This document shows positions 4,578 to 53,837 of a DNA stretch of 64,000 bases, piece after piece. The translations under genes were made by a program, and so were the position numbers. Under the pieces are notes generated by a model. It had not been told where the DNA came from. It searched no databases and saw nothing but the letters and a program-made list of their open reading frames with translations. The stretch's first letter is position 1. Each line of letters starts with the position of its first letter. The stretch is from Kineosporia babensis. Lineage in GTDB: Bacteria; Actinomycetota; Actinomycetes; Actinomycetales; Kineosporiaceae. The DNA lies in contig NZ_JAJOMB010000013.1 in assembly GCF_021129305.1 (NCBI RefSeq), forward strand, positions 1-64,000. Reading direction: 5' to 3'.

Positions 4578-4746
4578 CTAGGGAGTGTTTTGGAAGTCGC
4601 TGCCGTAGCGAGGAGGTGCCCGGTGGTCGTCTGGCAAGCCGTTGGAGCGCCCTCGTAGCGGTGTTCTACGTGGGCGTTCCAACGGCGCAGTCCAGGCGGC
4701 CACCGGGTGCCCCGCAGTAGGCATGGACTTCCAAAACACGACCTAG
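4578..4746 (+). repeat. 169-bp full-length hairpin element, copy 1 (MITE-like or structured RNA)
   Basis: The whole segment folds back on itself. The outer 21-nt arms (4578-4598 and 4726-4746) match at 19 of 21 positions and both end in CTAG, which could be a 4-bp target duplication or the arm ends. The inner parts pair imperfectly down to a small apex near 4650-4665. Two blocks, CCGTAGCGAGGAGGTGCCCG (from 4603) and CCGGGTGCCCCGCAGTAGGC (4703-4722), recur in the element at 53671-53837. No ORF of credible coding character and no transposase are inside. It lies between the divergently transcribed VOC and 231-aa genes. Confidence 0.85.
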
Positions 4747-53670: not shown

Positions 53671-53837
53671 CTGGGGCCTGTCCTGCGGATCTTTGCCTAC
53701 TGCAGGGCACCCGGGACGCCGTCTGACCGCGTCCGGTGTGGCCCCACGCAAAACCATTGCGAGGGGCCCCACCGGCCACGTCAGCCGACGTCCGGGCACC
53801 TCCTCGCTACGGCCCTGATCCACAGGACAGGCCCCAG
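53671..53837 (-). repeat. 167-bp full-length hairpin element, copy 2
   Basis: Terminal arms 53671-53691 and 53817-53837 match at 20 of 21 positions (CTGGGGCCTGTCCTG... on both strands). Read on the minus strand, the inner blocks CCGTAGCGAGGAGGTGCCCG and CCGGGTGCCCTGCAGTAGGC are the same as in the element at 4578-4746, at the same distances from the ends. The arm sequences differ at many positions but keep pairing. No transposase, no clear target duplication. It lies downstream of the IclR regulator gene, where it could act as its 3' hairpin. Confidence 0.85.

Follow-up and report, generated by a model that had tools for sequence, protein, structure and literature searches.

The two long hairpins found in a 64,000-nucleotide stretch of the Kineosporia babensis genome (contig NZ_JAJOMB010000013.1, positions 1 to 64,000; hereafter the window) are copies of one non-autonomous transposable element, a MITE, that belongs to a large family. 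They show the features of such elements: they are short (169 bp for element 1 and 167 bp for element 2), their arms are paired as terminal inverted repeats, they include no transposase gene and they are dispersed with differing flanks. We consider it likely that this MITE is mobilised through interchangeable arms and that its core persists with a fold specific to one strand. The degrees of confidence expressed below overlap, since two of the alternatives share the MITE part with this explanation.

The features of both copies are listed in Table 1. A first-pass annotation, made from the letters alone, had placed the hairpins at these positions and described them as alignable from end to end, and direct reading of both agrees with this. 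It had also counted nine differences between the 21-nt left arms, seven of them matched by changes in the right arms. The nine lie at positions 3, 7, 8, 12, 13, 16, 17, 18 and 19 and the matched changes at 3, 8, 12, 13, 17, 18 and 19, again by direct reading, and the two internal blocks are fixed in both window elements apart from the single C/T difference already described. The adjacent wobbles that it placed in the helix joining the blocks are widely kept, U.G in 31 and G.U in 30 of 33 sequences. Element 1 measures 163 bp between its TA duplications. In element 2 the flanking dinucleotides TG and CA pair with each other, as expected from copying between the arms of a palindrome.

Table 1. 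Positions of features of the two window hairpins and of a second gene-less element with the same right end
Feature	Position	Strand	Remarks
Element 1, arm type A	4578-4746	+	CTAG...CTAG; RNA-like fold with its sense running left to right
Element 1, left TA, putative target-site duplication	4579-4580		TA at both ends, outer flanks variable among copies; one empty site on a Streptomyces plasmid
Element 1, right TA, putative target-site duplication	4744-4745		Same basis as left TA
Element 1, left terminal inverted repeat	4581-4598	+	GGGAGTGTTTTGGAAGTC
Element 1, right terminal inverted repeat	4726-4743	-	Minus-strand reading GGTCGTGTTTTGGAAGTC
Element 1, conserved left block	4602-4623	+	GCCGTAGCGAGGAGGTGCCCGG; near-invariant in alignments A1 and A2
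Element 1, conserved right block	4703-4722	+	CCGGGTGCCCCGCAGTAGGC; pairs with left block via adjacent U.G and G.U wobbles
Element 1, apical hairpin	4654-4670	+	CGTAG-CGGTGTT-CTACG; columns 79-95 of alignment A2
Element 2, arm type B	53671-53837	-	TG at the left end and CA at the right end in place of the flanking TA
Element 2, left terminal inverted repeat	53817-53834	-	GGGCCTGTCCTGTGGATC
Element 2, right terminal inverted repeat	53674-53691	+	Plus-strand reading GGGCCTGTCCTGCGGATC
Element 2, conserved left block	53792-53813	-	
Element 2, conserved right block	53695-53714	-	
Second gene-less element, copies	L117 1611-1930; L118 1186-1415; L113 3206-3530; L119 1879-2167; L007; L040		

The last 19 bases of the left block, allowing up to 3 mismatches, are found at two places in the window, the mean per shuffle being 0.05 (100 shuffles, none of which reached 2). 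In the whole K. babensis genome, a draft of 9.4 Mb in 89 contigs, the left block is present at 48 sites when 3 mismatches are allowed, including 29 exact ones, whereas the reversed pattern gives 5; the pair of elements is therefore not due to chance. The further copies that the first-pass annotation proposed to look for are thus numerous, in other genera as well as in the host. Five arm-A copies at five places, element 1 included, are 98-100% identical to element 1, and the dispersed copies carry differing flanks (compared by eye). With up to 1 mismatch the left block is found in 6 of the 13 genomes of the host's family, which are all six of the genus, K. babensis among them. Exact left blocks in named genomes number 4 in Kineosporia rhizophila, 1 in K. 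mesophila and 1 in Kribbella sandramycini, a count that possibly leaves K. babensis itself aside.

A covariance model of the core matches at least 18 of 394 genomes of the class, K. babensis included, and at least 8 of these 18 carry two or more matches (up to 9 candidates per genome were scored). As the elements on which the model was built reach 31.3-46.2 bits with their antisense strand and the class matches 41-60 bits, these matches were not accepted on score alone. Loci were retained on the basis of sense-versus-antisense alignment (12 representatives), the conserved blocks and TA ends, and homology rests on the direct alignments because the model by itself is too unspecific. Of the 66 pairs of the 12 representatives, 65 score higher when aligned sense to sense than sense to antisense, the exception being L196-L216; Z values from 60 shuffles each, with the arms included, range from 0.1 to 98.9. 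By these scores the Kineosporia elements appear linked to the Streptomyces type with IS630 arms only through intermediates (Z of 19.9 for L001-L202, 14.0 for L202-L197 and 25.2 for L197-L198), the direct comparison, L001-L198, giving a Z of 1.1. Streptomyces-type copies are also present in plasmid records, 32 with one query (29 Streptomyces, 2 Embleya and 1 Kitasatospora) and 25 with a second (23 Streptomyces and 2 Embleya). Element 1 had no match in plasmid records, nor had a Streptomyces-type element in phage records. The first-pass annotation could name no known family for the hairpins and the same holds for Rfam, which at threshold gives only two tRNAs in the window and, for 11 loci searched up to an E value of 1, only tRNAs and mir-3158 in L193 (39.9 bits, the gathering threshold being 97).

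Short forms of about 75-85 bp also occur, with both arms and at least one adjoining block and without the inner hairpin (L085, L132, L134, L136, L140 and L107:5013-5087); two copies in K. rhizophila suggest that these move as well. A second gene-less element has the right end of the hairpins and a different interior, its copies being alike over about 160-290 bases and including an inverted repeat of their own (Table 1). Inspection by eye of a longer element with only the right end in common revealed no transposase ORF.

Most copies start and end with TA, mostly inside CTAG, and the bases further out are variable. An empty site is provided by two related Streptomyces plasmids, one of which has one CTAG where its filled sister has CTAG at each end of the element; the alignment gap is of 183 bases and lies at the stop codon of wrbA. 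This is one clean case (L276), in Streptomyces plasmids, two further candidates (L277 and L278) having been left out for poor alignment. By the empty site the target-site duplication may be TA or CTAG, and since some flanks read TA without the full CTAG, TA is favoured. The TA ends also argue against REP sequences or BIMEs with their RAYT transposase, REP hairpins having no TA duplication.

Movement by a matching transposase appears best supported, from sequence matches, in a genome with elements of the Streptomyces type (G273). It contains 54 arm sites, 50 of which form 25 pairs 145 bp apart, and all 15 copies examined among these pairs read C-TA...TA-G. One further arm pair spans 1,736 bp between its outer ends and surrounds the gene for a 390-aa IS630-family transposase (NF033545, 6.3e-43; PF13358). 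A partial second copy of this IS630 element, 99.8% identical over 1,032 bp, is found elsewhere, and the G273 hairpin agrees with the IS630 end at 20 of 22 bases in the right arm and 19 of 22 in the left. Lying between the left end and the transposase gene of the IS630 element (L257:933-2668) is a GNAT acetyltransferase ORF (979-1443), a possible passenger. Among seven IS630 loci, TARTGC-type ends were found in four, two of them with 5 mismatches in 16.

Other arms of the family resemble the ends of IS5-type elements. An element annotated as IS5 family on an Arthrobacter plasmid has the ends CTAGGGCGTGTCTCCTAA, and 14 of the 15 bases after the TA are as in the arm of the Kribbella hairpin. On a Streptomyces cavourensis plasmid (L279:1400-1660) an IS5-type element and a hairpin of the family adjoin with one TA in common, the transposase gene there showing 73.6% identity to the IS5-type locus L267. 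Nine stretches with IS5-type loci gave clean TA-flanked ends in three (two from L267, one from L273), weak ends in L272 and none in five; ends were additionally obtained for L268 and for K. babensis L086. The latter (L086 1361-2375, C10) is an IS5-type (DUF4096) element, now broken; the outer bases of its ends, GAGAGTGTTGGGTAA and GAGAGCGTTTTGGGTAA, are like those of arm type A, arm A and the degenerate end being alike at 8 of the first 9 bases. The IS5 link of the Kineosporia arms would be one of type and not of identity, the window arms matching IS5-type ends in the outer bases only. An IS630-mobilised, RUP-like origin of the window copies finds no support in their arms GGGAGTGTTTTGGAAGTC and GGGCCTGTCCTGTGGATC, which are unlike the IS630 ends found.

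By analogy with these relatives, the window copies would have been moved in trans by an IS5- or IS630-type transposase. In K. babensis, PF13340/PF01609 loci lacked the window arms at up to 6 mismatches, scattered weak matches aside, and a PF13358 profile search of the genome gave no match. The surroundings of twelve transposase loci yielded one unrelated weak pair of TA-flanked repeats, and a search for arm pairs in the genome and the genus returned no transposase-carrying element with the window's arm types. A 20-nt arm pattern, sought as exact matches only in the 394 class genomes, occurs in K. babensis alone, and the solo type-B arms, read in part, are decayed copies or unrelated flanks with no full IS. 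Two of the eight PF01609 matches in K. babensis sit at contig ends, so a partner could be missed in this draft assembly.

These observations bear on the first-pass reading of the hairpins as a structured RNA and not a MITE. Its RNA-like covariation stands, and extends to the inner stems, but its exclusion of a MITE does not, given the TA/CTAG target, the empty site and the arms of relatives that match the ends of insertion sequences. Arms conserved in sequence and matching the ends of a transposase-carrying element had been named as what would speak against that reading; among the relatives the arms are conserved within types and match the ends of IS5- and IS630-family elements. An independent structured small RNA, or an element akin to a riboswitch, with no part in transposition, would account for the covariation, the wobbles, the conserved internal blocks and the one-strand pattern described below. 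It is at odds with the TA ends and the empty site, with near-identical copies in differing flanks, with the mixed orientations of the neighbouring genes, with arms that relatives have in common with transposase-carrying elements and with the lack of any Rfam match at threshold, and we regard it as highly improbable; as a complete account it is already contradicted by the IS630-arm pairs and the empty site.

Arm types are fixed and common to many copies, beyond what two sequences show. In three pairs of K. babensis elements, type A and type B arms have 9-11 of 18 bases in common on each side, whereas 113-115 of 121 aligned bases are identical in the cores; the core of element 1 is more diverged (106 of 115 aligned bases, over 129 columns, against another type-A copy). 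Similarly, Streptomyces-type elements with the arms GGGCGTGTTGCGAAAGTC, GGTCGTGTCCGCAAAGTC, GGGCCTGTCGTCAAACTC and GGGCCCTTCTGATGGATC and with an IS630-type arm have 90-base cores that agree at 79-83 of 89-90 positions in five comparisons, and one with an IS5-type arm and one with an IS630 arm are identical at 83 of 90 core positions. Comparison between genera shows stronger conservation in the core than in the inner half of the ends. The arm covariation largely represents the replacement of whole terminal repeats on both sides, which explains the covarying arms of the first-pass annotation. The exchange may have come about by copying from one arm to the other or by neighbouring insertion at a shared TA, of the kind seen in S. 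cavourensis. One copy (L122 2334-2560) is a hybrid, with its left arm of type A and its right arm of type B.

Covariation within the hairpin was measured on an alignment of 33 distinct full-length sequences. Here 98.3% of cells pair and 31 of the 58 pairs show a double change, which none of 500 shuffles reached, and sliding the partner by 1-3 columns leaves pairing at no more than 44.2% and double-change pairs at no more than 12; the shuffles ignore ancestry, and the slides are biased towards a structure that was itself obtained from these sequences. Double changes are found in 16 of the 22 pairs of the inner helix, a part that forms no transposon end. As the sequences share ancestry, p-values overstate the significance of such counts.

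The pattern is that of one strand. Folds and mispair counts were obtained for 39 of 48 elements (38 from Kineosporia and 1 from Kribbella), 9 that are partial, rearranged or of unclear ends having been dropped. The sense orientation was fixed by sequence, not pairing, in the Kineosporia set, and by the model, backed by the alignments, in the Streptomyces type. Predicted RNA folds of the sense strand of the 39 full-length copies have raw energies of -103.7 to -149.0 kcal/mol and are stronger than those of the antisense strand in all 39 (means of -130.9 and -107.3 kcal/mol); for element 1 the minimum free energies are -125.7 kcal/mol on the plus strand and -103.3 kcal/mol on the minus strand. 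In 25 of 25 class loci the model matched the more strongly folding strand, a partly circular result since the model chose the strand. A strand-neutral alignment of arm to arm gives G.T and A.C mispairs in a ratio of 297:58 for the 39 elements and 209:26 for the 25 class loci, leaving out gaps and other mismatches (347 and 184 cells, respectively). In the 39 elements the excess divides into 272:48 in the core and 25:10 in the arms, and in 18 representatives into 124:15 and 23:2. Four loci (L199, L203, L210 and L218) are excluded from the 25; L199 and L203 were used in the pairwise alignments and in the count of the 18 representatives.

The changes within types, polarised by the majority of each type and placed on pairs from RNAalifold, which accepts G.U, follow the same pattern. 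Watson-Crick pairs changed to G.T in 12 cases, to A.C in 2, to another Watson-Crick pair in 7 and to other states in 6. At G.T pairs 19 of 19 changes led to a Watson-Crick pair, any transition at such a pair having this result; unpaired columns included only 7 transitions, a number too small for a control. G>A changes number 10 at G.T pairs, where pairing is improved, and 2 at G-C pairs, both compensated, so that a one-strand bias towards C>T does not account for the changes. These comparisons support the view that pairing in one strand is preserved by selection, with G.U apparently tolerated more than A.C. The core is thus probably kept for a one-strand property, presumably at the level of RNA.

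Two other ways of explaining a conserved palindrome were weighed against this one. If the family were an ordinary MITE with no RNA role, the palindrome would be kept by the need for both ends to match one transposase and by template-switch copying between arms. The arms of the relatives do match transposase-carrying elements and change as blocks, and the TG and CA of element 2 are what such copying would give. The two strands would then be expected to be equal, however, which is not what the 297:58 ratio indicates, nor would the ten G>A changes at G.T pairs and the two compensated ones at G-C pairs be expected, and the mismatched blocks conserved across genera would be left unexplained; we consider this account unlikely. 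Alternatively, one-strand pairing could be that of single-stranded DNA folded during replication or transposition and recognised as DNA. Strand preference alone does not separate RNA from single-stranded DNA, and the arms too show a G.T excess (25:10 in the 39 elements). The arms of the relatives match the DDE-type families IS5 and IS630, however, which act on double-stranded ends, and the stabilising effect of G.T is greater in an RNA hairpin than in one of DNA; recognition as DNA seems to us rather improbable.

Returning to the mobile element with interchangeable arms and a persisting core, its genomic setting is consistent with insertions that do little damage. Of the elements with two callable neighbours, 32 of 74 adjoin a predicted stop codon and 3 the start-side end of a gene, as judged with a crude gene caller for 74 of 87 rows (the other 13 were duplicates, fell within a gene call or lacked a neighbour that could be called). 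CTAG contains TAG and a stop codon is thereby rebuilt on insertion. Between co-directional genes the folding strand is antisense in 23 cases and sense in 8, so that read-through would mostly yield the weaker-folding strand. A harmful effect of sense copies on expression could explain this antisense excess, as could the crude gene calls.

We propose that a transposase encoded elsewhere binds the arms, excises the element and inserts it at CTAG. This target would often be the TAG of a stop codon and the rebuilt stop would make insertion nearly harmless. When the transposases of the host change, copies in which both arms have been replaced would spread, so that the arms follow whichever transposase is available and the core persists. 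K. babensis would hold descendants of two arm types, while the transposases that fit them would have been lost or would lie in unassembled parts of the genome; a partner IS for the window copies would carry the ends TAGGGAGTGTTTTGGAAKTC or TAGGGCCTGTCCTGTGGATC. Less certain is the part played by the transcript of the core, which as a long hairpin with wobbles may act as RNA, in processing, in mRNA stability or through effects on expression that make the element more tolerable. A bolder version, which we put forward tentatively and with more doubt than belief, is that the strand-specific structured RNA is the unit of inheritance, the IS5- and IS630-type transposases being disposable vehicles and the RNA the selected cargo; it would have lasted in several actinobacterial families by switching its transposon ends between the two types.

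Bacterial MITEs are usually tied to one IS through their ends. What differs here is that related cores lie between the ends of two transposase families, in several actinobacterial families and with a measurable one-strand pattern. The IS5- and IS630-family insertion sequences have the same ends and the same TA/CTAG target as the relatives of the window copies, but they encode a transposase where the hairpins encode none, and the hairpins show no likeness to their interiors beyond the ends. Several small folded repeats of other bacteria are comparable. In the available text of one source (PMC3049150), the pneumococcal RUP, BOX and SPRITE are presented as folded small mobile repeats, some in this group having IS-like ends. 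RUP is described there as a gene-less element of 107 bp with IS630-like terminal repeats, tightly folded with these repeats paired. The hairpins resemble it in being small, gene-less and folded with paired terminal repeats, and the G273 copies in their IS630-like ends; RUP, however, is AT-rich and streptococcal, whereas the hairpins are GC-rich, occur in several actinobacterial families and have several arm types, including IS5-like ones. BOX elements, in the same portion of that text (PMC3049150), are small mobile repeats of modular build and strong secondary structure, made of boxA, boxB and boxC modules and of widely variable length, whereas here the ends are exchanged around one core. The Correia elements or NEMIS of Neisseria are small MITEs with inverted repeats and a conserved core, whose transcript can be cleaved by RNase III according to the available parts of PMC2649163, PMC10969869 and PMC2229807. 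The likeness to the present family, judged by description and not by sequence, lies in the small size, the inverted repeats and the conserved core; the exchange of arms between transposase families seen here is not mentioned for Correia/NEMIS in the available parts of PMC10969869 and PMC2229807. The main text of this 2024 review of prokaryotic MITEs (PMC10969869) does not contain 'actinobacteri', Streptomyces or IS630, and the accessible portion of the open-access literature, searched also with sequence words of the elements, gave no description of them.

Should the core prove to be a functional RNA, the family would offer a natural case for testing how an RNA, selfish or useful, outlasts the transposases that move it, and its multi-copy hairpins at stop codons could affect the fate of mRNAs in actinobacteria, antibiotic producers included.
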